DNA from: Neobacillus nitrireducens
Lineage (GTDB): Bacteria; Bacillota; Bacilli; Bacillales; Cytobacillaceae
Reading direction: 5' to 3'
DNA: 64,000 nt
Assembly (NCBI RefSeq): GCF_030915405.1
Contig: NZ_CP133262.1
Span: forward strand, 1,240,001 to 1,304,000
The notes beneath the pieces were generated by a model. The model saw only the letters and a program-made list of their open reading frames with translations, was not told the DNA's origin and ran no database searches. The position numbers and the translations under genes were made by a program. Of this stretch, positions 48,709-63,251 are shown in pieces; the first letter of the stretch is position 1; every line of letters begins with the position of its first letter.

Positions 48709-48756
48709 TCTGGTACCTATTTTTTTTCGATTTTGGTACTTTTCATTATACCAGAT
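48709..48756. promoter_or_regulatory. candidate MocR/GabR-type operator
   Basis: The arms ATCTGGTA (48709-48716) and TACCAGAT (48749-48756) are perfect inverted repeats with another TGGTAC at 48734-48739, all between the divergent regulator and aminotransferase genes. GabR of B. subtilis recognises ATACCA-type repeats (established). A TATAAT -10 for the plus-strand operon is at 48774-48779. Confidence 0.6.
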
Positions 48757-48807
48757 CCATGGGATACTTTTCCTATAATTCAGAAAATTATTGAAGGAGC
48801 GATCAGA

Positions 48808-50109
48808 ATGCTAGTCTCTTATTCACAAACTGCAGCATTACAGGAAAAAAGAAAAAAATTTGTCCCAAAGGGTGTAAGCAATGGCAATTTAAACTTTGCC
48901 CAGCATGCCTCCGGGGCAACCGTAACAGATATTGATAATAATGAATGGATTGACTTTGCAGGTGCAATTGGAACGTTAAATGTAGGCCACTGTCACCCTA
49001 AAGTATCCGAAGCAGTCAAGATCCAAGTAGATAAGTTTTTACATCCTGGATTCAACGTTATCATGTATGAAAGTTATATCAATCTTGCTGAAAAGTTATG
49101 CCAAATCACCCCTGGGGAATTTGACAAACAAGCGATTTTCTTTAACTCAGGTGCAGAAGCAGTAGAAAATGCGATTAAAATTTCCCGCCGCTACACGAAA
49201 AGACCCGCGGTTGTTTCGTTTGTCCGCGGCTACCATGGACGAACCAACTTAACAATGGGCATGACAAGCAAGGTAAAGCCATATAAATATGGGTTTGGTC
49301 CCTTCGCTCCGGAAATTTACCAAGCACCATTTCCTTATATGTATCATAAACCAGCCGGGATGACAGAAGAAGAATATGTGGATCAGGTCATTTCAGACTT
49401 TGAAGATTTCTTTATCTCCACAGTTGCTCCGGAAATGGTAGCATGTGTGGTAATGGAACCTGTTCAAGGCGAAGGCGGTTTTATTATTCCACCGAAAAAG
49501 TTTATGCAAGCTGTGAGCCGTTTCTGTAAGGAGAATGGAATTGTGTTTGTAGCTGATGAAATTCAAACTGGATTTGGCCGTACTGGCAAATTATTTGCCA
49601 TCGAACATTTTGATGTAATTCCTGATTTAATTACGGTTTCAAAATCGTTAGCGGCTGGTCTGCCGTTAAGTGGTGTTGTCGGGAAAACAGAAATCCTAAA
49701 TGTTGCAGATCCCGGTGAACTTGGCGGTACTTATTCGGGGAGTCCTGTCGCCTGTGCTGCAGCTTTAGCCGTAATTGATATTGTGGAAGAAGAAAATTTA
49801 GTGGGGAAAGCTGAAATCCTTGGGCAAAAAATTGAAGCGAAATTACAAGACCTCAGCATAAAACATGATTTTGTAGGTGATATTCGCCGTTTGGGTGCGA
49901 TGGTTGCTTGTGAGATAGTGGAAGACCGCTTCAGCAAAAAACCAAACAAGACGAAAACATCACAGATTGTCAAATATGCAAACGAAAATGGATTATTACT
50001 CCTTTCAGCCGGCATAAAGAGTAATGTCATTCGTTTCTTAGCCCCATTAGTGATTACAGATGAAGAATTAGCAAAAGGATTTGCGATTTTGGAAAAGGCT
50101 TTTGAATAA
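48808..50109 (+). CDS. class III aminotransferase, GabT-like (4-aminobutyrate/5-aminovalerate)
   Basis: PLP enzyme that moves the amino group of an omega-amino acid to 2-oxoglutarate, giving a semialdehyde. The ATG at 48808 is preferred over an upstream start at 48733 because GAAGGAG lies 8 nt before it (433 aa). Motifs: FNSGAEAVENAIKISRRYT, VMEPVQGEGGFI, ADEIQTGFGRTG and the PLP-lysine stretch TVSKSLAAGLPLSGV. First gene of a MocR-controlled operon with an aldehyde dehydrogenase. Substrate (GABA versus 5-aminovalerate) is open; glutarate genes nearby favour 5-aminovalerate. Confidence 0.92.
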   Translation: MLVSYSQTAALQEKRKKFVPKGVSNGNLNFAQHASGATVTDIDNNEWIDFAGAIGTLNVGHCHPKVSEAVKIQVDKFLHPGFNVIMYESYINLAEKLCQITPGEFDKQAIFFNSGAEAVENAIKISRRYTKRPAVVSFVRGYHGRTNLTMGMTSKVKPYKYGFGPFAPEIYQAPFPYMYHKPAGMTEEEYVDQVISDFEDFFISTVAPEMVACVVMEPVQGEGGFIIPPKKFMQAVSRFCKENGIVFVADEIQTGFGRTGKLFAIEHFDVIPDLITVSKSLAAGLPLSGVVGKTEILNVADPGELGGTYSGSPVACAAALAVIDIVEEENLVGKAEILGQKIEAKLQDLSIKHDFVGDIRRLGAMVACEIVEDRFSKKPNKTKTSQIVKYANENGLLLLSAGIKSNVIRFLAPLVITDEELAKGFAILEKAFE

Positions 50110-50168: not shown

Positions 50169-51572
50169 ATGGTGTATATAATGGCAGATCTATTACAAGT
50201 GAAGAATCCGGCAACAGGTCAAGTAATTAAAGAAATCCGGATTAATACAGAAGAAGAAATAAAGCAAGCACTAAAAGCTGGGCATGACAACTTTAAAAAA
50301 TGGGCAAAGGTTAATGCCCATGAACGTTCCCGATTATTAAGAAACTGGGCACAAATCATTCAAGAGCATAAAGCAGAAATCGCTGAAATCATGACATTGG
50401 AAAATGGCAAGCCGTTGAGTGAATCACTCGGTGAAGTAGATTATGCCACTAGCTACATTGATTGGTATGCAGAAGAAGCAAAACGCATCTACGGAAGAAC
50501 AGTCCCTGCGTCTTCTGAAACAAAAAGAATCACTGTTACTAAACAGCCGATTGGTTTAGTGGCTGCAATTACGCCGTGGAATTTCCCGGCAGCAATGATG
50601 ACAAGAAAAGCAGCACCTGCTTTGGCGGCTGGCTGCCCATTTATTGTAAAACCTGCAGTCGAAACACCTTTAACAACGATTAGATTAGTTGAACTGGCCC
50701 ACGAAGCTGGAATTCCTACTGATGTCATCCAATACGTAAATGGTTCTGGCTCGATGGTCGGCGACCTTTTTACAAGCAGTGAACACGTCCGTAAAATTAC
50801 GTTTACTGGATCTACTCCTGTCGGAAAGCAATTAATCAAAAACAGCGCTAATACGGTGAAACACGTAACGATGGAATTAGGCGGGCACGCTCCTCTTATC
50901 GTTGCCGAAGATGCGGACCTGGATTTTGCTGTCCAGCAAACGCTCCTCACTAAGTTTCGGAATGCAGGACAAACATGCGTATGTGCAAACCGGATCATTG
51001 TCCATGAAACGATTGTTGAGGCTTTCTCTGCCAAATTAGCAGAAGCAACAAAAAACTTAAAAGTTGGCAATGGACTTGATAAAGATACACAGGTAGGACC
51101 TATTATTAACGAAAAGGGTTTCAACAAAATCGTTGACCAAATTAATGATGCGATTGAAAAAGGGGCAATGGTCCTGGCTGGAAATCAATTCAACGCCGAT
51201 AAGGAACAAGGGTACTTCTTCGTCTCCCCTACTGTCTTATCAAATGTTACGCTTGATATGAACATTATGCAGGAAGAAACGTTTGGTCCGGTCGCTCCGA
51301 TTATTACCTTTAAACATTTAGAGGAAGCAGTAGAGATTGCCAATAGTACTCCATATGGGTTAGCTGCCTATTTCTTCACCAATAACTATAAAACCGGCAC
51401 ATATTTAAGTGAAAATCTGGACTTTGGCATTGTCGGCTGGAATGACGGGGCACCATCCGGAGCTCACATTCCCTTTGGTGGCATGAAGGAAAGTGGAATT
51501 GGCCGCGAAGGCGGGCTCGAAGGGATTGAACCCTACTTGGAAACGAAATATTTATCTATAGGAAATCTATAG
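50169..51572 (+). CDS. succinate/glutarate-semialdehyde dehydrogenase (GabD-like)
   Basis: 463-467-aa NAD(P)+-dependent aldehyde dehydrogenase that oxidises the semialdehyde from the upstream aminotransferase to succinate or glutarate. Conserved parts: [31 protein letters not shown], the catalytic Glu in [11 protein letters not shown] and catalytic Cys in [14 protein letters not shown] at 50181 or 50169; both are plausible. A short hairpin (CCCGGTCC/GGATCGGG) lies in the 59-nt gap after gabT. Confidence 0.92.
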
Positions 51573-51748: not shown

Positions 51749-53599
51749 CTATAACATATTCCCTAACTTCTTTAACTCGGTTTCGATATATGATCTGCTA
51801 TGATCAAACCCAATAATGGCCAAAACGTTTCCGTTATGGTCCGTTAAGGGAGCAAAGCTGGTTTTCCATTCTCCATAAATATCTTCATATAAAGAAGTGA
51901 CTCCTGCTTTCCCATCCATCGCCTCAAATGCAACTTCCATCATTTCAGGAGGCCCTTCATATATATGCCCAGGTGGAATGACGAAATCTTCACTTGCTAC
52001 AATCGTTAGCATTTTATTATTATCTAAAGCTTTAAAAATATAGACCCACTCAATGATTCCTTCTTGTTCACGTATTTTCGTTAATTTTTTCTGAACATTT
52101 TTATACGTCAGGTTGGATGGCGACATATTATGATTTACTAATTCAAAGATTTCTTCTGGAAGAATGACAGTAGATGTCACAATCGCCATGGATCGTAATT
52201 GTTTATTTAAATGTTCTTCTAGTATCTTCCTTTTATTTAGAGGTGAAAGAGTTTTGTGTTGCATTTTCTCGCGGATTTTTTTATATTTTCTACTCATTGT
52301 AGGTTGACTAATATCCAATACTTTTGCTGCAAGCTTAACTGATTTATATTTATCGATCGCCATTTTTATCAATTGTTCTTCAATCATATCCACCGCTTCT
52401 TGCATCGGGATAATGTGATGAATTATAGGAGGATCCTTTACAGCAGTCTTTTTCGGGATATATTTGTAGACTAAGCTTGAGTCTACATTCAATTCTTTAC
52501 TAGTCACGACGATTCGTTCAATCGTATTCTCTAATTGCCTGACATTTCCCGGCCAATCGTAGATACATAATAAATCAATAGCATCTGGTAGAATATTGAT
52601 GTTTCTATGGTATAACGAATTATATTTTCCTACGAAATGATAGATTAGGTAAGGAATCTCTTCAGTTCTTTCCCTTAATGAAGGAATTTCAATTGGTACT
52701 ACATTTAAACGATAATATAGGTCTTCTCTAAATCGTCCCTCTCTGACCATTTTTTCTAATGATTGATTCGTTGCAGCTATTATTTGGACATCAATATGAA
52801 TCGGTTTTGAACTTCCTAATGGTGTGACTTCTTTTTCCTGTAAAATTCGCAGTAACTTAACTTGCAAGTTCAGTGGCAATTCTGCAATTTCATCGAGGAA
52901 AATAATTCCTTCATTTGCTAATTCAAATTTTCCGGGAGCACCATTTTTGTTTGCACCACTAAATGCCCCGCCCACATAACCGAATAATTCACTCTCTAAT
53001 AAATTTTCCGGAATAGCACCACAATTCACTGCAATAAAAGGTTTAGATCCCCGATTACCTAATTGATGAATGGTTTTAGCAAACATTTCTTTCCCTACAC
53101 CTGATTCTCCTAATAAGAGAACTGTGGTTGAAACTTTTGAAACCATTTCTATTGTATGGAGTACATCTTTCATTTTCTGACTATGGACGACCATTGAAGG
53201 AATGTGTTTTATTTCCGGCTCATCGTTTATTTCAATGGAATTCCTTAAAGGATCGGAGATACTTTTTAATCCCCATACCATTAACTCTTCCATAGTATCC
53301 TTTGATTGGAACACGGTTATGAGAATCGTACTGCCATTCCAAGCCTTTAATTGAAGAGAGTGTGCCTCTTTATTTAATAATTGTAAAATGGGAGCACCAA
53401 AAAATGAAATTTCCTCTAATTCAGTAAATGTTCTACCTATCAATGAGGTTGTGTTTGTTGACCAAAAGTTTTTCAATTTTCCACCTAGAAATAAAATCGT
53501 TCCGTTTACATTGGTGACAATCATTTCATCGTAAATAGATAGAAAACTAGATTGAAAAGCTTGGATTAATTGATCATTAGTCATAATCATGGAAATCAC
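51749..53599 (-). CDS. sigma-54 dependent transcriptional activator with PAS-like N-terminus and C-terminal extension
   Basis: 616-aa enhancer-binding protein. PAS-like N-terminal sensor (about 10-110); AAA+ domain with Walker A GESGVGKE (164-171), a GAFSGA loop (211-216, in place of the usual GAFTGA that contacts sigma-54) and Walker B IIFLDE (232-237); arginine-finger region about 290-310; Fis-like HTH (about 400-446); and then ~165 further residues (450-616) that look like a small sensor domain. GTG start at 53599 with AAGGGG upstream. Divergent from the N-demethylase operon, which has a -24/-12 promoter. Confidence 0.9.
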   Translation of the reverse strand: MISMIMTNDQLIQAFQSSFLSIYDEMIVTNVNGTILFLGGKLKNFWSTNTTSLIGRTFTELEEISFFGAPILQLLNKEAHSLQLKAWNGSTILITVFQSKDTMEELMVWGLKSISDPLRNSIEINDEPEIKHIPSMVVHSQKMKDVLHTIEMVSKVSTTVLLLGESGVGKEMFAKTIHQLGNRGSKPFIAVNCGAIPENLLESELFGYVGGAFSGANKNGAPGKFELANEGIIFLDEIAELPLNLQVKLLRILQEKEVTPLGSSKPIHIDVQIIAATNQSLEKMVREGRFREDLYYRLNVVPIEIPSLRERTEEIPYLIYHFVGKYNSLYHRNINILPDAIDLLCIYDWPGNVRQLENTIERIVVTSKELNVDSSLVYKYIPKKTAVKDPPIIHHIIPMQEAVDMIEEQLIKMAIDKYKSVKLAAKVLDISQPTMSRKYKKIREKMQHKTLSPLNKRKILEEHLNKQLRSMAIVTSTVILPEEIFELVNHNMSPSNLTYKNVQKKLTKIREQEGIIEWVYIFKALDNNKMLTIVASEDFVIPPGHIYEGPPEMMEVAFEAMDGKAGVTSLYEDIYGEWKTSFAPLTDHNGNVLAIIGFDHSRSYIETELKKLGNML

Positions 53600-53913
53600 A
53601 CATTTACCCCTTCATTCGCTAGATTTTTAAATTTTGGGATTATTCAAAATGAATTATTTCATATTTGAATAAAGAATTCAAATTTGAATTTAACAAATAC
53701 TAAAAAATTAAAAGAATATTGAATTGTGGCTATTTTGTGAACACTTTCAATCTGGCATAAAACTTGCAAATGTTTATATTAGAGGATTAGAAAAGAGGCG
53801 GTCTATAGAACTGGAACGATTTATTGCATGAACAGCAAGTAAAATAAGATTATTTTCCATCTATTCAATTTAAAAGTGAGTTTATTGTTCAAAAAATAAA
53901 GGAGGAATTTTTC
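53600..53913 (+). promoter_or_regulatory. intergenic control region with palindromic candidate activator site and sigma-54 promoter
   Basis: 314 nt between divergent genes. The perfect 16-bp palindrome AATTCAAATTTGAATT (53675-53690) overlaps an ATTTGAAT...ATTCAAAT inverted repeat (53663-53683), about 90-110 nt upstream of the predicted start, the usual place for an activator site. TGGCATAAAACTTGCA (53753-53768) matches the -24/-12 consensus. An AAGGAGG lies before the ATG at 53914. Confidence 0.7.
53753..53768 (+). promoter_or_regulatory. sigma-54 (-24/-12) promoter of N-demethylase operon
   Basis: TGGCATAAAACTTGCA has GG and GC dinucleotides with the strict 10-nt spacing of sigma-54 promoters and matches the consensus at TGGCA and TTGCA. 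The predicted start lies near 53779. Confidence 0.85.
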
Positions 53914-54900
53914 ATGTACAAATCTACTAAACTGGATTTATTTCCATATCCTTTTCGAAACATTAAAGAAGGTACCAACTACCGTTATTCAAATGACTTA
54001 AAAAAACTTGAAAAGCATGAACAAAATTGTGTTGTCATAACACCAGAATATGAAAAACAAATAAAAAGAAAAAGGGAATTACTTAATGAACAACCTGAAG
54101 TAAGATTCCAATCCTATCCACATACCATGGAAATGCAATGGGAAGTAGCAGAAATGCTGATTAATATGGCGGTTGAACGCTACCCGGAGCATTTCCAAGT
54201 TGAAAAAAATGGTAATTACTGGACTTTTCATAATTTAATCCTAAATGAAACGGAATCTTTCAAATTTGGTGATGAATCTAGCATCGAGCTAGAGCCGCTT
54301 GATCTAGTTGGCCGTCATTTCGCCACTGACTTTGTATTAATGGTTCTTCGGGATGACAATCTTTATTTGGAAGTTGCTCAAGAATCCTATGCAGCTTTAT
54401 TCTCCCCTCACTGGAATAAAGGAATGTCCTTTGACGAAATTCATGGACCGGTACCATTTGTATCACGCACAGGTGTACCGCTAGTTGAAAGAGTTCGTAA
54501 TTTCTTAATACGCAATGTTTTACCAGGTGAGCCATGGACCAGAATCAATTGGAATTTGATGGCAAACCGTTGGGATGTAAATTATGAAACATATGATATA
54601 TGGGGACCAACACGCTCTCTAGTCACTCCAGAAAATGCCGGTAAACTAGTAAGACTTCGTGTAGAAGAACAATTTTTCTATCGTATGCCTAGAAGTAATG
54701 CGATTTTGTTCGTATTAAATACTCAATTCCTGCCAATGGAAGATTTGACATTAAAACCAGAATGGCTTGAACAAACCTACTCTATCCTCTCGGATATTCC
54801 TAAACCAATGGCTGATTATAAAGGATTTACCCCATTTATCGAACCTACTGTAGAATATTTGAAAAACTTGGTTGAAAAAGTAAAATTACAAACTAACTAG
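53914..54900 (+). CDS. heme-dependent oxidative N-demethylase-type protein (DUF3445)
   Basis: 328-aa protein of the DUF3445 family. Characterised members are the heme subunit of dimethylamine monooxygenase and related oxidative N-demethylases that turn secondary or tertiary N-methyl amines into the demethylated amine and formaldehyde (established for Pseudomonas/marine proteins). The start ALDLFPYPFR-like LDLFPYPFRN, the long family core with LEVAQESYAALFSPHW, FVSRTGVPLVERVRNFLIR, RINWNLMANRWDV and LRVEEQFFYRMPRS are typical. The following two genes encode the DmmA- and DmmB-like partners. Substrate not known from sequence. Confidence 0.87.
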   Translation: MYKSTKLDLFPYPFRNIKEGTNYRYSNDLKKLEKHEQNCVVITPEYEKQIKRKRELLNEQPEVRFQSYPHTMEMQWEVAEMLINMAVERYPEHFQVEKNGNYWTFHNLILNETESFKFGDESSIELEPLDLVGRHFATDFVLMVLRDDNLYLEVAQESYAALFSPHWNKGMSFDEIHGPVPFVSRTGVPLVERVRNFLIRNVLPGEPWTRINWNLMANRWDVNYETYDIWGPTRSLVTPENAGKLVRLRVEEQFFYRMPRSNAILFVLNTQFLPMEDLTLKPEWLEQTYSILSDIPKPMADYKGFTPFIEPTVEYLKNLVEKVKLQTN

Positions 54901-54925
54901 CGTGCAATGATTGGAGGTATGTAAA

Positions 54926-55444
54926 GTGGTATACAACAGCCCAGTATTATTTGATCAATCAGAAACAATTGTAGAAAAATTCACAGTAAGACATGATAGG
55001 AGAAAATTACTTATTATTTCTGCTGAACCAAGAGAAGCAGTAACAATCCAACAATTTACGAACGAAATAAATGACCAAAAAGAATATGAACTTATCGAAA
55101 TCAATGATGAATTACAATTAAAAAATATTAGCGAAGTGTTTGATCGTCAAAAAATGGGGACACAACTTTATATCTCAGCTAAATGGGAGGATGCGGTTCC
55201 TATTTTTTCTTCAGCGATTGAGGCTGGGTTTTCAGAAGATGGAATTCAAACACTTATTTCTGGCGAGAAGAGACGATATGTTTATTGTATGAAATGCTAT
55301 CATCTACAGGAAGTTGAACCTAAAGAATCAGATACAATTTGTTGCCATTGCCAAATCAGCTTAGAAATTGGTCCTTTCTTCTCCATAGAGCGAAAAGGAT
55401 ATATTGGATATCCTTACAACCCAGCTTTCGTAACATCAATTTAA
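54926..55444 (+). CDS. DmmA-like subunit with rubredoxin-like Cys motifs
   Basis: 172-aa protein, start at GTG 54926 after GGAGG (an upstream TTG is less likely). The C-terminal third has CMKC and CCHC pairs (YVYCMKCYHLQEV, TICCHCQISLE), which suit a rubredoxin or zinc site, as in the dimethylamine monooxygenase subunit DmmA family. The N-terminal part is beta/alpha with no obvious motif. It lies 25 nt after the DUF3445 gene and 56 nt before the reductase gene. It probably works in electron delivery to, or assembly of, the demethylase. Confidence 0.82.
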   Translation: MVYNSPVLFDQSETIVEKFTVRHDRRKLLIISAEPREAVTIQQFTNEINDQKEYELIEINDELQLKNISEVFDRQKMGTQLYISAKWEDAVPIFSSAIEAGFSEDGIQTLISGEKRRYVYCMKCYHLQEVEPKESDTICCHCQISLEIGPFFSIERKGYIGYPYNPAFVTSI

Positions 55445-55500
55445 TAGTTACATGAGAAGTAAAAAGTAGAATTAAAGTCATAACGATGGGAGTGATGTTT

Positions 55501-56475
55501 ATGAGAGCATTCGGAAAGATTAAAGTTTACGTAGGAAAAATAGTACAGGAAACAAGAACGGTAAGGCGCTTCCACTTGTATCCGGTTGATGTAGAATTAC
55601 TGCCTGCATTTACAGGTGGTTCCCATATCGCTACATTTGTAAAAAGCGGTAATGGCGTTATTGAAAGAAATTACTCTCTTGTCAGCCATCCAACCGACCG
55701 TACTCAATATGCAATTGCCATTCGGAAGGATGACGCTTCAAGAGGTGGTTCCGTTTATTGGCATGATCAGATCAATGTGGGCGATCATTTAGAAATCAGT
55801 TGGCCTAAAAATCATTTCCCGCTGGCTTTCAAAGGAGCTAAACATCATGTATTTTATGCAGCTGGAATCGGTATTACTCCATTTATGACCATGATGGAGG
55901 ATTTAACAGCAGAAGGAAAATCATTTGAATTACATTATTCTGCAAGAACGAATGAAGATTGTGCTTTTTATGACGAATTGCAGTCAAAATATCCCGGTAA
56001 ATGTCACTTCTATTTTTCAAGAACAGAAAATCCTACTAGAATGACACCTGTAACCATGGCGGAACATCGGATTGGCACACATGTGTATTTCTGTGGACCC
56101 GTTTCAATGGTGAAAGAATACAAGGTAGCAGCGGACTCATACGGTTACCCAAGTCATTCCATTCATTTTGAATTATTTGCCACGACTGATGAAGGAGCGA
56201 AAAATCCTTTTGTTGTAAAATTAGCGAACAGCGGGAATCAGGTGGAAGTTTCTGAAGAAGAAACGTTATTAGAAGCCCTATTAAAAGCTGGGATAGAAGC
56301 TCCCTATTCTTGTAAGGTAGGTGGATGCGGTAGCTGCGAAGTACAAGTAGTTGAAGGTGAGGTTGATCATCGAGATCACTTCTACAAAGATGAAGAAAGA
56401 CGTACGAAGAAAGTTATTTTAACCTGTTGCTCGAGAGCAAAAGAACTTGAAAAAGAGCTCGTTTTAGAACTATAA
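55501..56475 (+). CDS. PDR/VanB-type oxidoreductase (flavin, NAD, C-terminal 2Fe-2S), DmmB-like
   Basis: 324-aa reductase, ATG at 55501 with GGGAGTGAT upstream. Flavin-binding RNYSLVSHP (about 60-68), NAD-binding GIGITPFMTMM (about 122-132), and plant-type [2Fe-2S] ligands in CKVGGCGSC plus a distal Cys (about 275-310). This is the phthalate dioxygenase reductase/VanB arrangement. It transfers electrons from NAD(P)H to an oxygenase, here most likely the heme demethylase encoded two genes upstream. Confidence 0.9.
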   Translation: MRAFGKIKVYVGKIVQETRTVRRFHLYPVDVELLPAFTGGSHIATFVKSGNGVIERNYSLVSHPTDRTQYAIAIRKDDASRGGSVYWHDQINVGDHLEISWPKNHFPLAFKGAKHHVFYAAGIGITPFMTMMEDLTAEGKSFELHYSARTNEDCAFYDELQSKYPGKCHFYFSRTENPTRMTPVTMAEHRIGTHVYFCGPVSMVKEYKVAADSYGYPSHSIHFELFATTDEGAKNPFVVKLANSGNQVEVSEEETLLEALLKAGIEAPYSCKVGGCGSCEVQVVEGEVDHRDHFYKDEERRTKKVILTCCSRAKELEKELVLEL

Positions 56476-56560
56476 TAGTGACTTTTTTCTGTAATAGATT
56501 CATAATTTTCATCTTTGGTATCTAAAAACGCTGAGGCGTATAAAATTGGAGGCAATTCTT

Positions 56561-58057
56561 ATGACAACAACCACTCAAGTATTAGAATTAAAGATGCTTA
56601 TTAATGGTGAATGGAGACTTTCTAGTAATCCAGATTCCAATAAGGTAATTAATCCGGCAAATGGTGAATTAATTGCGATCGCTCCTAGAGCAACAGTTGA
56701 AGAAACCAAAGAAGCCATCAAAGCGGCAAAAGAAACGTTTGAAAGTGGGGTATGGTCTAAGCTAAGTGCACAAGAACGTGCTCATTACCTATTGAAAATT
56801 GCTGATAAAATTGATGAAAAACACGATGAACTAGTAGATCTTGAGGTAAAAGATAATGGAAAAATTAAAGCCGAGGCTGATATTGATATAAGTGATGCTG
56901 CCTCTTGTTTCCGCTATTATGCCGGCCTAATTAGGACTCCAGATGGACAAACATACCATGTTGCCGATCCAATGCAAACGATGGTAGTACGTGAACCAGT
57001 AGGGGTTACAGGGTTAATTGTTCCTTGGAATTTCCCATTCTTAATGAGTGTTTGGAAATTTGCTCCTGCGTTAGCAGCTGGAAATACGATTGTGTATAAG
57101 CCAGCTGAAGTAACTCCGGTAACTGCGACGAAATTAGTTGAAATTATAGAAGAGGTTGGTGTCCCTAAAGGTGTAGTCAATTTGGTATTAGGAAAAGGCT
57201 CTGTAATTGGCGAGGTTATCGCAGCCAGCCTTGATGTAGATATGGTGTCATTTACAGGAAGCACTGAGGTAGGAAGAAGCATTATGCGTAACGCTGCAGG
57301 CAATTTGAAAAAAATCTCCCTTGAATTAGGTGGAAAGTCACCAAATATTATATTTGCTGATGCTGATTTTGAAGCTGCTGTTGATCATGCATTATTAGGT
57401 ATTTTTTATGGCTCTGGTCAAGTATGTTCTGCTGGAAGCCGAATTATTGTTGAAGAAAGCATTTATGATCAATTCGTTGAGGAGTTCGTAAGACGCGCCA
57501 AAAATATCAACGTAGGACCAGGATTAGAAGAAGGTTCTGAAATGGGTGCCATTGTCAGTGAAGCACAGCTTAATACTATTCTAGAATATATCGAAATCGG
57601 TAAAAAAGAAGGCGCAACATTAGCATGTGGTGGAAATCGTCTTACGGAAAATGGTTTAGATAAAGGATTCTTTGTTCAACCAACCGTATTCATTAATGTA
57701 TCTTCAGAGATGAGGATCGTAAAAGAAGAAATCTTCGGACCTGTGGGCGTTATTCAAAAGTTTAAAAATGAAGAAGAAGCAATTAAACTGGCAAATGACA
57801 CAATTTATGGTCTTGCCGGCGGCGTATTTACTTCAGATGGAGCAAAAGCACTGCGAGTAATTAAACAAGTACGTGCTGGGATAACTTGGATTAACGCTTA
57901 TGGACCAACTTACAACGAAGCGCCATGGCATGGATATAAACAAAGTGGCATCGGTTCAAGCCTTGGAACATTTGGATTAGATGAATTCCAAGAAGTGAAA
58001 CAAATTAACATAAATCTTGCTGTAGGACCAACAGGCTGGTTTTCAGACGATAAATAA
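56561..58057 (+). CDS. aldehyde dehydrogenase (betaine aldehyde dehydrogenase-like)
   Basis: 498-aa NAD(P)+ aldehyde dehydrogenase. ATG at 56561 after TTGGAGG. Motifs: GVTGLIVPWNFPFLMSVWK, FTGSTEVGRSIM, catalytic Glu in LELGGKSPNII and catalytic Cys in GSGQVCSAGSR. Sequence style is close to betaine/aminoaldehyde dehydrogenases. In this operon it would oxidise the aldehyde released after amine demethylation/deamination, or formaldehyde; the choice is open. Same operon as the demethylase genes (85 nt downstream of the reductase gene). Confidence 0.88.
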   Translation: MTTTTQVLELKMLINGEWRLSSNPDSNKVINPANGELIAIAPRATVEETKEAIKAAKETFESGVWSKLSAQERAHYLLKIADKIDEKHDELVDLEVKDNGKIKAEADIDISDAASCFRYYAGLIRTPDGQTYHVADPMQTMVVREPVGVTGLIVPWNFPFLMSVWKFAPALAAGNTIVYKPAEVTPVTATKLVEIIEEVGVPKGVVNLVLGKGSVIGEVIAASLDVDMVSFTGSTEVGRSIMRNAAGNLKKISLELGGKSPNIIFADADFEAAVDHALLGIFYGSGQVCSAGSRIIVEESIYDQFVEEFVRRAKNINVGPGLEEGSEMGAIVSEAQLNTILEYIEIGKKEGATLACGGNRLTENGLDKGFFVQPTVFINVSSEMRIVKEEIFGPVGVIQKFKNEEEAIKLANDTIYGLAGGVFTSDGAKALRVIKQVRAGITWINAYGPTYNEAPWHGYKQSGIGSSLGTFGLDEFQEVKQININLAVGPTGWFSDDK

Positions 58058-58120
58058 CGATTAAAATAAATTAACTTTCTAATTAACTAAAGTTTACTGA
58101 ATATTAGCATAACTATACAT

Positions 58121-58136
58121 TGGCACAGTACTGGCA
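58121..58136 (+). promoter_or_regulatory. sigma-54 promoter of APC permease
   Basis: TGGCACAGTACTGGCA preserves the GG and GC positions of the -24/-12 consensus with correct spacing (one mismatch in the -12 TTGC). It lies about 40 nt before the permease start, so the permease can be switched on with the demethylase operon. Confidence 0.7.
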
Positions 58137-58174
58137 AATAGAATTTAATTACTATTTAAAGGAGGCTCAAAAAT

Positions 58175-59710
58175 ATGCAAAAAAATCAGAACAACATAAT
58201 TGATGGATCTGCGACAGAACATCATGATAGTGATGCTGCGCAACTGGCATCGCTTGGATATAAATCTGAATTTCGCCGCGACATGAGTCCATGGGCAAAC
58301 TTTTCGCTTGGGTTCACATATCTATCTCCTGTAGTAGGTGTGTACACACTATTTGCATACGCACTTGCGGTTGGCGGGCCGGCAATGATTTGGAGTTTTG
58401 TTATTGTCGGACTCGGACAATTACTAGTGGCACTTATCTTTAGTGAGATAGTTGCTCAATACCCTGTTTCAGGGGGAGTTTACCCTTGGGCCCGAAGATT
58501 ATGGGGCCGCAAGTGGGCTTGGATGACTGGCTGGGTATACTTGATAGCTTTGCTTGTGACAATTGCCAGTGTTGTATACGGAGCAGGACCTTTTCTAGGA
58601 CAAATTTTAGGGTTTCAAGCATCTGTGGACTCCACGATAATATGTGCTCTAATCATTCTTGTACTTGCGACTATCATTAATTTTCTTGGTACAAAGGTTC
58701 TTGCAACTGCAGCCATAATTGGTTTTGCTGCTGAGATTATTGGTGCGCTTGTTGTTGGTGGCTGGTTGCTTTTAACGGAAAGACATCACGGTCTTAACGT
58801 GCTCTTTGATTCTTTTGGTGCTCAAGGTAGTGGCAGCTATTTTATTGCATTTGCAGCAGCTTCATTAATTGGAATTTTTCAATATTATGGGTTCGAAGCT
58901 TGTGGTGATGTAGCTGAAGAAGTACCGAATCCGGGTGTTCTTATACCGAAGGCCATGCGTCGGACGATTTACATTGGCGGTGCTGCGGCAACTTTTGTTT
59001 GCGTTTCTTTAATCCTTGCCGTTGCTGATATCCCAGCTGTCATCGCTGGTGAGGACGTAAACCCTGTGGATACAATACTAAACGATGCTTTTGGCCCTAT
59101 TGGAGCAAAAATTGTACTGGGTATTGTAGTGATTTCTTTCCTTTCATGTGCAATGAGTTTACAGGCGGCAGCAAGCAGACTTGCTTATTCGTATGGACGT
59201 GATGATATGATTATAGGAAGCCGATTGTTAAAGAAGTTTTCCGCTACTCGCCACATCCCACCATATGCACTTCTCCTTGCGGCTTTTGCGCCTGCCATCA
59301 TTGTGCTTGGATCAAAAGTGTCTGCAGATGCAATCACAAAGATAGTCAGTTTTGCGGCTTTTGGCATTTATCTTGGATTCCAACTGGTTGTCCTTGCTGC
59401 GCTTCGAGCTAGACTTAAAGGATGGAAGCCAAGTGGGAAGTATCAATTAGGCAAGTGGGGACTGCCTATCAATATTGGTGCACTTATTTACGGAATTATC
59501 GCTATGATTAACATGTGCTGGCCAAGAACGCCAGATGCACCGTGGTTTGATAACTATATCGTGCTCATTTCAGGAGTGGTAGTTGTTGTTACTGGACTAG
59601 TGTATATGATGATTCATCGCAGCTATGGACATAGCAGTATGCCGTATAATGATGCAATACCGAAAAAATATATCTCGGAGCAAAACGAGCCCAAAGACAT
59701 ATCAATGTAG
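58175..59710 (+). CDS. APC-superfamily amino acid/amine permease
   Basis: 511-aa permease with about 12 membrane segments; VSGGVYPWARRLWGRKWAWM-like segment and GFEACGDVAEEVPNPG resemble amino acid/GABA/choline-type permeases (UGA4/BAT1 style). AAAGGAGG precedes the ATG at 58175. It probably imports the N-methylated amine or amino acid for the upstream operon. It is followed by a terminator at 59844-59869. Confidence 0.88.
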   Translation: MQKNQNNIIDGSATEHHDSDAAQLASLGYKSEFRRDMSPWANFSLGFTYLSPVVGVYTLFAYALAVGGPAMIWSFVIVGLGQLLVALIFSEIVAQYPVSGGVYPWARRLWGRKWAWMTGWVYLIALLVTIASVVYGAGPFLGQILGFQASVDSTIICALIILVLATIINFLGTKVLATAAIIGFAAEIIGALVVGGWLLLTERHHGLNVLFDSFGAQGSGSYFIAFAAASLIGIFQYYGFEACGDVAEEVPNPGVLIPKAMRRTIYIGGAAATFVCVSLILAVADIPAVIAGEDVNPVDTILNDAFGPIGAKIVLGIVVISFLSCAMSLQAAASRLAYSYGRDDMIIGSRLLKKFSATRHIPPYALLLAAFAPAIIVLGSKVSADAITKIVSFAAFGIYLGFQLVVLAALRARLKGWKPSGKYQLGKWGLPINIGALIYGIIAMINMCWPRTPDAPWFDNYIVLISGVVVVVTGLVYMMIHRSYGHSSMPYNDAIPKKYISEQNEPKDISM

Positions 59711-59875: not shown

Positions 59876-60187
59876 TTAATAAGAATCCCCTTGTGATAGA
59901 TTTACCTTTTCAAAATGTTCAACTGTCGGAAAAGGGTGATAGAAACGGTGTAATAACGCTTTCCATTCTTGATACTCATTTGATTGTCTGAATCCTACAG
60001 TGTGGTCTTCTAAACTCTCCCACTTAACCAAAAGCAAATATTTACCCTCCACTTCCATACAACGCTGTAATTCGTGTGAAATATAGCCCTTCATTGTTGA
60101 GATAATTTTAGATGCTTTGCGAAATGATTCTTCATATTCCTGTTCCATTCCTGCTTTCACTTGAAGCATAGCGGATTCCAGTATCAT
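59876..60187 (-). CDS. antibiotic biosynthesis monooxygenase (ABM) domain protein
   Basis: 103-aa ferredoxin-like ABM-fold protein. The ATG at 60187 is preferred: AGGGGGAG lies 5 nt upstream. MILESAMLQVKAGMEQEYEE, the WES motif in LLVKWESLEDH and the C-terminal HRFYHPFPTVEHFE fit the family. Many members are heme- or quinone-related, function often unknown. It is monocistronic between the permease terminator and the 60276-60321 terminator. Confidence 0.85.
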   Translation of the reverse strand: MILESAMLQVKAGMEQEYEESFRKASKIISTMKGYISHELQRCMEVEGKYLLLVKWESLEDHTVGFRQSNEYQEWKALLHRFYHPFPTVEHFEKVNLSQGDSY

Positions 60188-60275
60188 TGACTCTCCCCCT
60201 AATAACAATGCTATTTCCTAATGGAAAAATTTGATAGTCTTAGGCTATCATTAGTCACGTTGTTGTAACATAGCC

Positions 60276-60410: not shown

Positions 60411-61349
60411 TTATTGGTTAAATCGCCCACGTTGGCGAAGTAACTCTCGGTATAGATTCGGATCTTTTTCAAATGCAGCACGCCCATGAAGCCAGAAAAT
60501 ATTATTGATCACGACAAGATTTCCAACTGGTAGTTCCAATTCTATTACATGATTATCATTTTCCAATGATGCAGAAAGATCACGAAGATATTTTGCTTGC
60601 TCAATGGTATCAGGATAAACAAATTGATCGATAAAACATATACCAGGCTTGTTATTATAATTGAAGAAAGTTAATCTTTCAATCTCTTGATCAATGTTTT
60701 TACTTTTTGGCGCTTTATACATAAATTTATGATTTGCTAACGGATGTTTGACATACTTGTCCATTTCATTCCAGTCATCAAGATGCAATAAACGTGATTC
60801 ACCACCGCGGGCATTTTGTTCCACCATCTTCATCATTATCAGCCAATCTGTCGGCTCATCCACAAACGTACCATCTGTATGAAGTGTAAATAACCGATAT
60901 GCTTGACGAAGATACGAGTCGCTGCTATCCGTATCTTTTACAGTGAAGCGTGCATAATACTTTCCCGACATTGCATCATGATTTGGAGCTCCCAATAAAT
61001 GAGAAATAGCGGTTGAAAAAATTACATATTCGTCAGTATTTTCAGTAACACCTTCTAAACCAATAGTAAAACCACCGGATTGTCGATCATGTAAAATGCT
61101 CAGAAGAAGTTCAGCAAACTCTTCCCCGACTTGATTCAATAGATAAGAAGCAACAATATGGCGAGCAAATGGCGTATATTCCAAATGCCGAACGGAAATA
61201 TCGTCCTGTTTTACTGCTTCCAGAAAATTAGAAAGCGCATTTGTTGAAATATTAATGTGATATAATCGGTCACTTTGAGGATGCGGTTCAATTTCATAAG
61301 CTTGTGTTTTTTGAACAAATTTTAATGCTTTCTTTTCGATAACATTCAT
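60411..61349 (-). CDS. glaH: glutarate 2-hydroxylase (GlaH/CsiD)
   Basis: 312-aa Fe(II)/2-oxoglutarate oxygenase that hydroxylates glutarate to L-2-hydroxyglutarate with decarboxylation of 2-oxoglutarate. ATG at 61349 after AGGAGG (TTG at 61352 unlikely). Metal site HTDG (LFTLHTDGTFVDEPTDWL) and distal histidine in FWLHGRAAF; MVEQNARGGESRLLHLDDW is the CsiD signature. In E. coli csiD-lhgO-gabDTP form one operon; here lhgO and gab-like genes are nearby on both sides. Confidence 0.93.
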   Translation of the reverse strand: MNVIEKKALKFVQKTQAYEIEPHPQSDRLYHINISTNALSNFLEAVKQDDISVRHLEYTPFARHIVASYLLNQVGEEFAELLLSILHDRQSGGFTIGLEGVTENTDEYVIFSTAISHLLGAPNHDAMSGKYYARFTVKDTDSSDSYLRQAYRLFTLHTDGTFVDEPTDWLIMMKMVEQNARGGESRLLHLDDWNEMDKYVKHPLANHKFMYKAPKSKNIDQEIERLTFFNYNNKPGICFIDQFVYPDTIEQAKYLRDLSASLENDNHVIELELPVGNLVVINNIFWLHGRAAFEKDPNLYRELLRQRGRFNQ

Positions 61350-61404
61350 CAATAAAACCTCCTGAATAATGATTAAATTATCTGTTATCCACTTGAAAAC
61401 AAAA

Positions 61405-61642: not shown

Positions 61643-61978
61643 TCATTTAACTGCTTTAATCTCATTTTTTTGCTGGTGATAGTAGAGAGAAAGGTCTTTT
61701 AGAGCAGCAATCAGCGCATTTATTGCTTTCCCGCGGTAATAATACTGAATATACTCAACATGTTTGTCAATTTCCTCATTCAAACTGATTCCCTTCAGTA
61801 AATTGCCAATGAATTCTCTCCCGTGCTCCGTTGCAAGTGTACAAGATGCTTCTAATATAACTCCATATTTAGTTTCCACTTCTGCCGTAATCGTTAATGT
61901 ATCAAACACACTTTTAGCCGCCATCCCCTGTGGCAATCTTGCATGGCCAGCAATAAACATGACATTTGGATTTATCAT
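61643..61978 (-). CDS. DUF3870 domain protein
   Basis: 111-aa small protein, ATG at 61978 after GAGGGAGA (an upstream TTG at 61993 is less likely). The pattern VMFIAGHARLPQGMAAKSVF, EVETKYGVILEASCTLATEH and YYRGKAINALIAALKDL matches the DUF3870 family. Conserved Cys and His residues may bind metal or a small ligand. No function is established. It sits between lhgO and glaH with a 58-nt gap to lhgO, suggesting a role in glutarate metabolism. Confidence 0.8.
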   Translation of the reverse strand: MINPNVMFIAGHARLPQGMAAKSVFDTLTITAEVETKYGVILEASCTLATEHGREFIGNLLKGISLNEEIDKHVEYIQYYYRGKAINALIAALKDLSLYYHQQKNEIKAVK

Positions 61979-62036
61979 AATTTTCTCCCTCAATTAAGCT
62001 TTATATTTTTATTTTGGTCTTACAAACATCTGTTTA

Positions 62037-63251
62037 TTATAATGCAACAGACATTTTTAAATGACCTTGAACCGGTATTCGATTAACGACTTCCTTTCCG
62101 ATTTCAATCGAAGCTGTTGCTGCAGGAGAAGGAGCATTACATACGTGAACACTGCTCTTCCCCAGAATAATATGGAAGTCATCAACCATGACCCCATCAT
62201 TTTTCAAAGCTTGTGCACGCACTCCCGCTGGAGCAGGAACTAAATCATCTGCTTGAATTTCAGGAATTAATTGCTGAAGGCTTTCAACAAATTTTGCTTT
62301 GCTTACAGAACGAACCATTTCATCAAGGCCCTCTTTCATAAATCCACTTGCAAGCTTCCAAAAGCCTGGATACCCCATTACTTCTGCAAAATCCTTTAGA
62401 TTGAAATCTGTCTTTTTGTAACCTTCGCGTTTAAAACTTAAGACTGCATTCGGCCCTGCATCTATTTCTCCGCTAATCATTCGTGTAAAGTGAACACCAA
62501 GGAATGGAAACTTAGGATTAGGGACCGGATAGATTAAGTGCTTAACAAGGTATCTTTTTTCTGGTTTTAATTTAAAATATTCGCCGCGAAAAGGCACAAT
62601 TTTCATATCTGTTTGGTATCCAGCAGCTTTTGCTACACGATCACTATGTAGACCTGCACAGTTGATAACTAGACGGGCTTTATACGTTTTTATATTCGTT
62701 TCAATCAACACTTCGCCTTTATTCTCATTTATTTTTTCCACTTTCGTTCCTAGCTTGATTTCACCTCCATGTTGCAAAATAATTTCGGAGAATTTTTCGC
62801 TCACTTGACGATAATTAACTATTCCTGCCATCGGGACACGAATCGCCCCCAACCCATTGACATGAGGTTCAATTTCCTTTAATTCTCCTTTGCTGATCTT
62901 TTGAATGGCCAATTCATTTTCAAGACCACGTGAAAATAAGTTCTCAAGATGCGGCAATTCTTCTTGCTTAGTGGCTACAATTACTTTACCGCAGATATCA
63001 TGTTCTATATCATGCTTTCGGCAAAATTCTATCATCGAACGGCTTCCCGCTTTAGCAAAACGCGCTTTAAAACTCCCCGGCTTATAATAAATCCCAGAAT
63101 GGATAACACCGCTGTTATGGCCTGTCTGATGATCCGCTACCACATTTTCCTTCTCTAGCACTAAAACTTTCGCATCCGGATAACGTTCATAAAGTGCCAT
63201 TCCCGTTGACAATCCCACAATTCCCCCACCGATTATCGCAAAATCATACAT
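62037..63251 (-). CDS. lhgO: L-2-hydroxyglutarate oxidase/dehydrogenase
   Basis: 404-aa FAD oxidoreductase that oxidises L-2-hydroxyglutarate to 2-oxoglutarate, passing electrons to quinones or oxygen. FAD Rossmann motif IGGGIVGLSTGM (about 7-18), HNSGVIHSGIYYKPGS, ADxNCAGLHSDRVA-like and the C-terminal GVRAQALKNDGVMVDDF identify LhgO/LhgD. The upstream site GAGGAG precedes the ATG. With glaH it converts glutarate to 2-oxoglutarate. It is the first gene of a DUF3870-containing operon. Confidence 0.94.
   Translation of the reverse strand: MYDFAIIGGGIVGLSTGMALYERYPDAKVLVLEKENVVADHQTGHNSGVIHSGIYYKPGSFKARFAKAGSRSMIEFCRKHDIEHDICGKVIVATKQEELPHLENLFSRGLENELAIQKISKGELKEIEPHVNGLGAIRVPMAGIVNYRQVSEKFSEIILQHGGEIKLGTKVEKINENKGEVLIETNIKTYKARLVINCAGLHSDRVAKAAGYQTDMKIVPFRGEYFKLKPEKRYLVKHLIYPVPNPKFPFLGVHFTRMISGEIDAGPNAVLSFKREGYKKTDFNLKDFAEVMGYPGFWKLASGFMKEGLDEMVRSVSKAKFVESLQQLIPEIQADDLVPAPAGVRAQALKNDGVMVDDFHIILGKSSVHVCNAPSPAATASIEIGKEVVNRIPVQGHLKMSVAL

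Follow-up and report, generated by a model that had tools for sequence, protein, structure and literature searches.

What does a heme-dependent oxidative N-demethylase (HODM) act on in a bacillus, where it stands among genes that the known HODM units do not carry? The question is raised by an operon in a 64,000-nucleotide stretch of the Neobacillus nitrireducens genome (contig NZ_CP133262.1, positions 1,240,001 to 1,304,000; hereafter the window, in whose own numbering positions are given), in which the genes hodA-dmmA-dmmB-aldh-apc run in this order from 53914 to 59710, with an activator gene divergent from them at 51749–53599. A first-pass annotation had described DUF3445, DmmA-like, DmmB-like, aldehyde dehydrogenase (ALDH), and APC permease genes forming a unit, i.e., an HODM-type operon under sigma-54 control in a Bacillaceae genome. 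All the genes it named were found where it had placed them within 53914–59710, the promoter boxes are present, and the activator gene lies just outside that range. The operon is confirmed as real, conserved, and regulated in its layout. We lean toward regarding it as a three-part heme monooxygenase of the HODM kind, which belongs to a bacillus-specific clade and has a substrate of its own, an imported secondary amine that would be converted into an omega-aminoaldehyde and then into gamma-aminobutyrate (GABA) or 5-aminovalerate. No title or abstract on HODM-type operons in bacilli was found in the literature, most subscription journals being outside the coverage of the search.

The enzyme and its clade

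The hodA gene (53914–54900, + strand) encodes an HODM alpha-like protein, the putative heme catalytic subunit, and is the sole PF11927 (DUF3445) match in the 5.15 Mb single-contig genome by profile search (E 5.4e-50; 170.7 bits against a curated cut-off of 25). It matches HODM 5lte by phmmer at E 2.1e-56, and the AlphaFold2 (AF2) model of HodA (pLDDT 87) matches 5lte/5lth with TM scores of 0.86–0.87 and E values of 6e-30 and 1e-29, by which the protein is predicted to have the PAS-related HODM fold. An alignment of 78 alpha-subunit sequences shows 46 positions that 75 or more of them conserve, and H177, R210, N212, W213, R249, and E251 are invariant in all 78.

The next two genes encode a DmmA-like subunit with a C-terminal four-cysteine motif (54926–55444, +) and a DmmB-like flavin/2Fe-2S reductase of the phthalate dioxygenase reductase type (55501–56475, +). 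The starts of dmmA, dmmB, and aldh were placed slightly inside the listed open reading frames (ORFs; 54911–55444, 55486–56475, and 56546–58057, respectively), judged from ribosome-binding sites, at GTG 54926 after GGAGG, ATG 55501, and ATG 56561. The DmmA-like gene scored under the cut-offs of both NF041259 (E 6e-15, 55.3 bits; cut-off 60) and PF22289 (26.8 bits; cut-off 27.4), and its motif cysteines (C126, C129, C144, and C147, in the numbering of the ORF from 54911) are kept at all 31 loci of the clade described below. The reductase exceeded the cut-offs of Fer2 (68.1 bits against 21) and NAD_binding_1 and fell just under those of FAD_binding_6 (20.2 against 21.1) and PF22290, "DmmA-like_N" (32.1 against 33), while the four 2Fe-2S (Fer2) cysteines are found in 30 of the 31 clade reductases, the other being a fragment. 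The alpha subunit presumably carries heme, and a heme demand is indirectly supported by the Bacillus badius plasmid pPM400 (396 kb), in which hemA for glutamyl-tRNA reductase (TIGR01035, 387 bits against a cut-off of 209.55) lies inside the HODM operon (L123, 7618–8961).

PF11927 was found in 45 of 193 genomes of the window's GTDB family, 12 of which resemble the window by score and 33 of which do not, and a scan for named relatives gave 28 loci in Bacillus sp., Neobacillus, Niallia, Ammoniphilus, Pseudalkalibacillus, Psychrobacillus, Planococcus, Ureibacillus, Peribacillus, Kurthia, and Lysinibacillus. For comparison, 31 loci of the window's type (clade B) were set against 40 other Bacillales PF11927 loci, a division made first by score and then confirmed by a midpoint-rooted tree. 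Ten loci (L063–L070, L072, and L073) were excluded as repeats of L032–L041, and nine further clade-B loci (L092 and L096–L103) were left outside the 31. Half of the comparison loci (20 of 40) had flanks limited to about 7 kb or less on each side, where roughly 9 kb was available for most of the rest, and a few clade-B loci were short as well (L074, 9.7 kb; L087, 15.5 kb). Several ORFs of L079 are split, namely those for the activator, NCS1, the reductase, and the ALDH.

The hodA tree (78 sequences) separates the 31 clade-B rows from all others by a branch supported at 100/100, the stem length being 1.36 changes per column, and 11 comparison loci group with seven proteobacterial dimethylamine-type sequences (support 95/94). 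Sixteen positions, several of them around 163–167 and 214–222, are near-fixed in clade B and hold another residue in the 18 dimethylamine-type sequences; these clade-specific positions may line the substrate pocket. The comparison loci have a DmmA-like ORF with alpha in 37 of 40 cases and a DmmB-like ORF in all 40.

Sigma-54 promoters and the divergent activator

The two -24/-12 promoters that the first-pass annotation had claimed correspond to the only two exact matches of TGGCAYNNNNNTKGCA in 64 kb, both on the + strand, where shuffles expect 0.25 and reach two in 2 of 100 cases. One, TGGCATAAAACTTGCA at 53753–53768, precedes hodA, and the other, at 58121–58136, precedes the permease gene. 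The hodA promoter box is present at all 31 clade-B loci and at 1 of the 40 comparison loci, start-corrected ORFs (L035 and L036) having been used in clade B only. Before the APC gene, the box was found at 5 of 11 APC loci checked; that of L038 coincides with the start assumed for the ORF.

The activator gene (51749–53599, − strand) contains a Sigma54_activat domain at E 4e-70, and the protein consists of a PAS-like N terminus (recognized by eye only), an AAA+ domain, HTH_50, and a C-terminal domain that resembles Cache/PAS-type sensors in profile and AF2 comparisons. A divergent activator accompanies 30 of 31 clade-B loci, L071 being the sole exception with none found in its flank, as against 0 of 40 comparison loci, among which L053 has one activator-like ORF on the same strand 6.7 kb away. 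The extra C-terminal domain follows the helix-turn-helix in 29 aligned activators (51752–52249 in the window). Its AF2 model has a pLDDT of 92, the nearest folds are CitA (Z 13.9), DcuS (13.5), and PctC with GABA (11.8), and dCache_1 gives weak matches to 12 of 25 members; the domain is thus modeled as folding like Cache/extracytoplasmic PAS sensors. The VIA-align fold rows were set aside as a guide to ligand identity because they give the shared Cache/PAS fold only. If the model is correct, the place of such a domain behind the helix-turn-helix of a DNA-binding activator is an unusual sensor position.

A motif scan gave two candidate upstream activator sites (UASs), TTCATATTTGAA at 53658–53669 and TTCAAATTTGAA at 53677–53688; a third copy, at 53643–53653, is weaker and shorter by one base. 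The motif TTCA-N4-TGAA (N3 allowed) lies upstream at 29 of 31 clade-B loci, with 45 sites in all, where 1000 Markov shuffles gave 1.2 and at most 6. The tandem pair at 53658 and 53677 is unique in the genome, and of the 21 clade-B genomes 11 have such a pair, in a total of 12 places, all of which are, by coordinates, at hodA, NCS1, or APC of the unit, with 0 in a backwards control. A single site was rejected as proof of a private regulon, because a site with a -24/-12 box precedes other sigma-54 operons, several having their own activators, and only the tandem pair therefore points to the HODM operon. Sites upstream of gabT in two genomes (G130 and G132) were likewise not counted as regulon members; they adjoin another activator. 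The combination of TTCA-N4-TGAA and a -24/-12 box was observed ahead of several unrelated sigma-54 operons in Bacillales (L194–L208), so a family of activators may use a common site.

Gene context and the probable substrate

The permease gene (58175–59710, +) has TIGR03428 and TIGR00907 as its best NCBIfam matches, both far below cut-off. The amino-acid-type permease of the first-pass annotation holds for the window, where APC is found, but the type is not fixed in the clade: close NCS1 permeases are present at 21 of the 31 loci and APC at 11 (both in L039), so that one or the other is always there, as against none at the 40 comparison loci. NCS1 carriers are known for small N-heterocycles. 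Close NCS1 relatives were found in 4 of 249 genomes, beside hodA in three and, in the fourth (G603), beside an activator and an ALDH. At the latter locus (L229/L230; G603:C2:66000-98000; NCS1 57%, activator 51%, ALDH 66%), a GlcD-like FAD oxidase, Fe-S proteins, and ETF replace HODM, and gntR-gabT-gabD follow about 4 kb further on (gabT 81%, gabD 84%). The oxidase set of G603 is possibly an alternative oxidation system for the same compound.

The ALDH (56561–58057, +) is tentatively assigned to the betaine/omega-aminoaldehyde type from profiles, the ALDH tree, and gene context, although none of the 25 NCBIfam matches listed reaches its cut-off. A close ALDH is found at 29 of 31 clade-B loci and at none of the 40 comparison loci, 2 of which (L135 and L136) have a distant one (42%) beside hodA. 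The operon ALDHs form one clade in all 28 rows of the tree, which took 28 of the 29 enzymes and left out the L079 fragment. An ALDH match at E 1e-195 occurs in 27 of 249 Bacillales genomes, and relatives outside hod operons were inspected at 19 loci (18 regions plus L201), where a class-III aminotransferase-like ORF was found within 6.5 kb at 17 and a sigma-54 activator at 16. Single loci among them contain potA (L212, over the subfamily cut-off), agmatinase (L213, over the cut-off), a PotD-like protein (L220, below the cut-off), or glaH, lhgO, and DUF3870 together (L222). This layout is the one expected of putrescine/diamine breakdown. In L201 (1820–6362; genome G911), the order is class-III aminotransferase-like ORF, ALDH-like ORF, second ALDH (62% to that of the HODM operon), behind a UAS and a -24/-12 box.

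On the other side of the activator lie gabT, for a GABA aminotransferase that likely provides a downstream step (48733–50109, +; NF005376, 761 bits against a cut-off of 676), and a gabD-like succinate-semialdehyde dehydrogenase gene (50169–51572, +; TIGR01780, 643.6 against 646.35, just under). A gabT gene with at least 60% identity stands within 9.5 kb at 8 of 31 clade-B loci and 0 of 40 comparison loci (Fisher p 0.0007, uncorrected for relatedness and flank length), and in Kurthia (L083) it begins 33 bases after the ALDH gene. The presence of GabT anywhere in the genome was uninformative as a discriminator (17 of 21 clade-B against 16 of 20 other genomes). Downstream of the operon, the window contains glaH for glutarate dioxygenase (60411–61352, −; NF002814, 436.6 against a cut-off of 333), a DUF3870 gene, lhgO for L-2-hydroxyglutarate oxidase (62037–63251, −; NF008726, 602 against 299), a permease, a further ALDH, and a further gabT-like gene. 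Methylotrophy markers (amt, amine oxidase, HPS, and PHI) are near none of the 31 clade-B loci and near 10 of the 40 comparison loci.

The absence of these markers, the kin of the ALDH, gabT, the downstream genes, and the NCS1 relatives together favor the production of an omega-aminoaldehyde from an imported nitrogen compound. Cyclic secondary amines such as pyrrolidine and piperidine appear to be the best-fitting single substrate class, because hydroxylation next to the nitrogen would yield an omega-aminoaldehyde. We infer the following course. The activator would sense substrate or product, possibly through its C-terminal Cache-like domain, bind to the TTCA-N4-TGAA sites, and fire the sigma-54 promoters, and the permease, APC here and NCS1 in most relatives, would import a small secondary amine. 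Electrons from NAD(P)H might pass through the DmmB-like reductase, helped by the DmmA-like protein, and reach heme bound to the alpha subunit with its PAS fold, and this subunit would hydroxylate the carbon next to the nitrogen. Opening of the C-N bond or ring would give the omega-aminoaldehyde, to be converted by the ALDH into GABA or 5-aminovalerate, from which GabT/GabD with GlaH/LhgO could feed succinate or 2-oxoglutarate. A more specific proposal, that the enzyme is a PAS-fold heme ring-opening monooxygenase for pyrrolidine/piperidine-class amines in bacilli, leading to GABA and 5-aminovalerate by a heme route that involves no P450 and stands under an activator with a cytoplasmic Cache-type sensor after its DNA-binding domain, is put forward only tentatively.

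Several observations weigh against the conversion of a secondary amine via an omega-aminoaldehyde. The eight loci adjoined by gabT represent only about four lineages, and GabT at the threshold used is missing from 4 of 21 clade-B genomes. Two of the 31 operons lack the ALDH, though both genomes hold a 70% paralogue, and the window ALDH scores highest with betaine aldehyde dehydrogenase (582.8 of 668.6) and lower with aminobutyraldehyde dehydrogenase (464.4 of 615). The marker absence taken alone is weak and not clade-specific, because the comparison loci that do not belong to the dimethylamine-type subgroup, 29 in number, have no markers nearby either. The formaldehyde-assimilation profile does not discriminate, HxlA exceeding its cut-off in 12 of 21 clade-B and 14 of 20 other genomes. 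The replacement oxidase of G603 is GlcD-like, usually a hydroxyacid enzyme, and hemA-like ORFs are near 2 of 31 clade-B loci, the second being L071, and near 1 of 40 comparison loci (7.6 kb away).

The different N-methyl compound that the first-pass annotation had proposed survives as one option. An oxidative N-demethylase for, e.g., N-methyl-GABA would release a primary amino acid and formaldehyde, the ALDH would clear the formaldehyde or act on the remainder, and GabT/GabD would take GABA. N-demethylation is the chemistry of the HODM family, the APC permease distantly resembles amino acid permease families, and the gabT/gabD neighbors and the HxlA count agree with this scheme; the lack of HPS, PHI, amine oxidase, and amt near the clade-B loci does not, albeit shared by 29 comparison loci. 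Since the relatives of the ALDH are located in diamine-type operons and, with the gabT/gabD neighbors, favor C-N or ring cleavage, we consider an N-methyl substrate rather unlikely.

Dimethylamine itself is probably not the substrate, as the first-pass annotation had held, but its argument from a missing glutamine amidotransferase-like fourth subunit fails. According to the excerpted text of PMC5520151, the role of fourth subunit belongs to DmmD, a tetrahydrofolate-binding protein of the GcvT kind; in E. coli, dmmABC suffices for the demethylation of dimethylamine, while dmmD is required for the growth of Ruegeria on this amine. A DmmD/GcvT-like ORF was found in the fetched flanks of none of the 31 clade-B and none of the 40 other Bacillales loci, i.e., none of all 71, whereas one is near all seven proteobacterial plasmid loci, three of which supplied the queries; its absence is therefore uninformative on the substrate. 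The gene context speaks against dimethylamine. An ordinary dimethylamine monooxygenase with odd neighbors would account for the same three subunits and the same fold, and yet it is improbable given the separate clade, its stem length, and its altered positions, the dedicated permease and ALDH types that are absent near all 40 other loci, and the lack of methylotrophy genes (amt, amine oxidase, or RuMP genes), which are near 10 of the 11 dimethylamine-type Bacillales loci. Equally improbable is cleavage of a spermidine-type polyamine at its secondary amine into 4-aminobutanal and a diamine, which would suit the putrescine-type operons, with potA and agmatinase, where relatives of the ALDH occur, because NCS1 or APC permeases stand in the operon instead of a polyamine ABC system and the ALDH-kin operons carry an aminotransferase, not an oxygenase.

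Two neighboring genes also deserve mention. An ABM-family small monooxygenase gene adjoins the operon in the window (59876–60208, −), in its same-species genome (L034, 3711–4043), and in the Bacillus badius copy (L123, 3097–3405), i.e., at 3 of 31 clade-B loci. The DUF3870 gene (61643–61993 in the window; also L035, L036, L214, and L222) recurs beside the glutarate genes glaH/lhgO, next to genes for CoA-transferase/acyl-CoA dehydrogenase, or in the vicinity of an ALDH operon of the diamine type, and its product is possibly an uncharacterized partner of glutarate use.

Comparison with known systems

The operon is a variant of the HODM kind, probably with a new substrate. The HODM alpha subunit of structures 5LTE/5LTH, from Pseudomonas mendocina, shares with HodA 33% identity over the model, the high TM scores, and the conserved His, Arg, Asn, and Trp positions; clade B differs in its 16 near-fixed substitutions, its own permease and ALDH, and the lack of a DmmD gene near the operon. 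The other Bacillales PF11927 units share the alpha, DmmA-like, and DmmB-like genes but none of the 40 has a close ALDH, NCS1, APC, or divergent activator, and 10 are near amt, amine oxidase, or RuMP genes. In the portions of the literature found, dimethylamine is the sole physiological substrate named for the HODM family. If our reading is true, this conserved clade of bacilli, in which near-fixed changes go with a dedicated regulator, transporter, and ALDH, would widen PAS-fold heme chemistry past demethylation and offer a small enzyme set for C-N cleavage, with possible use in N-heterocycle degradation or as a biocatalyst.

The Ruegeria/Methylocella DmmDABC systems, as far as the excerpt of PMC5520151 describes them, have the alpha, DmmA-like, and DmmB-like subunits in common with clade B, which differs in the order alpha-A-B, in having the GcvT protein DmmD at none of its loci, and in its sigma-54 control, ALDH, and permease. 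The GabR and KamR systems of Bacillus thuringiensis (excerpt of PMC4428206) similarly place the use of GABA and lysine under sigma-54 and an activator of their own that contains PAS, and the DUF3445 operon is not among the rows of the table contained in that excerpt. Mycobacterium P450 PipA/MorA are credited with the oxidation of piperidine and morpholine (as cited in the excerpt of PMC9477822); here the likeness is limited to what the reaction is proposed to achieve, the hydroxylation of a cyclic secondary amine by a heme enzyme, since these enzymes have the P450 fold rather than the PAS fold and homology with HodA is not claimed.

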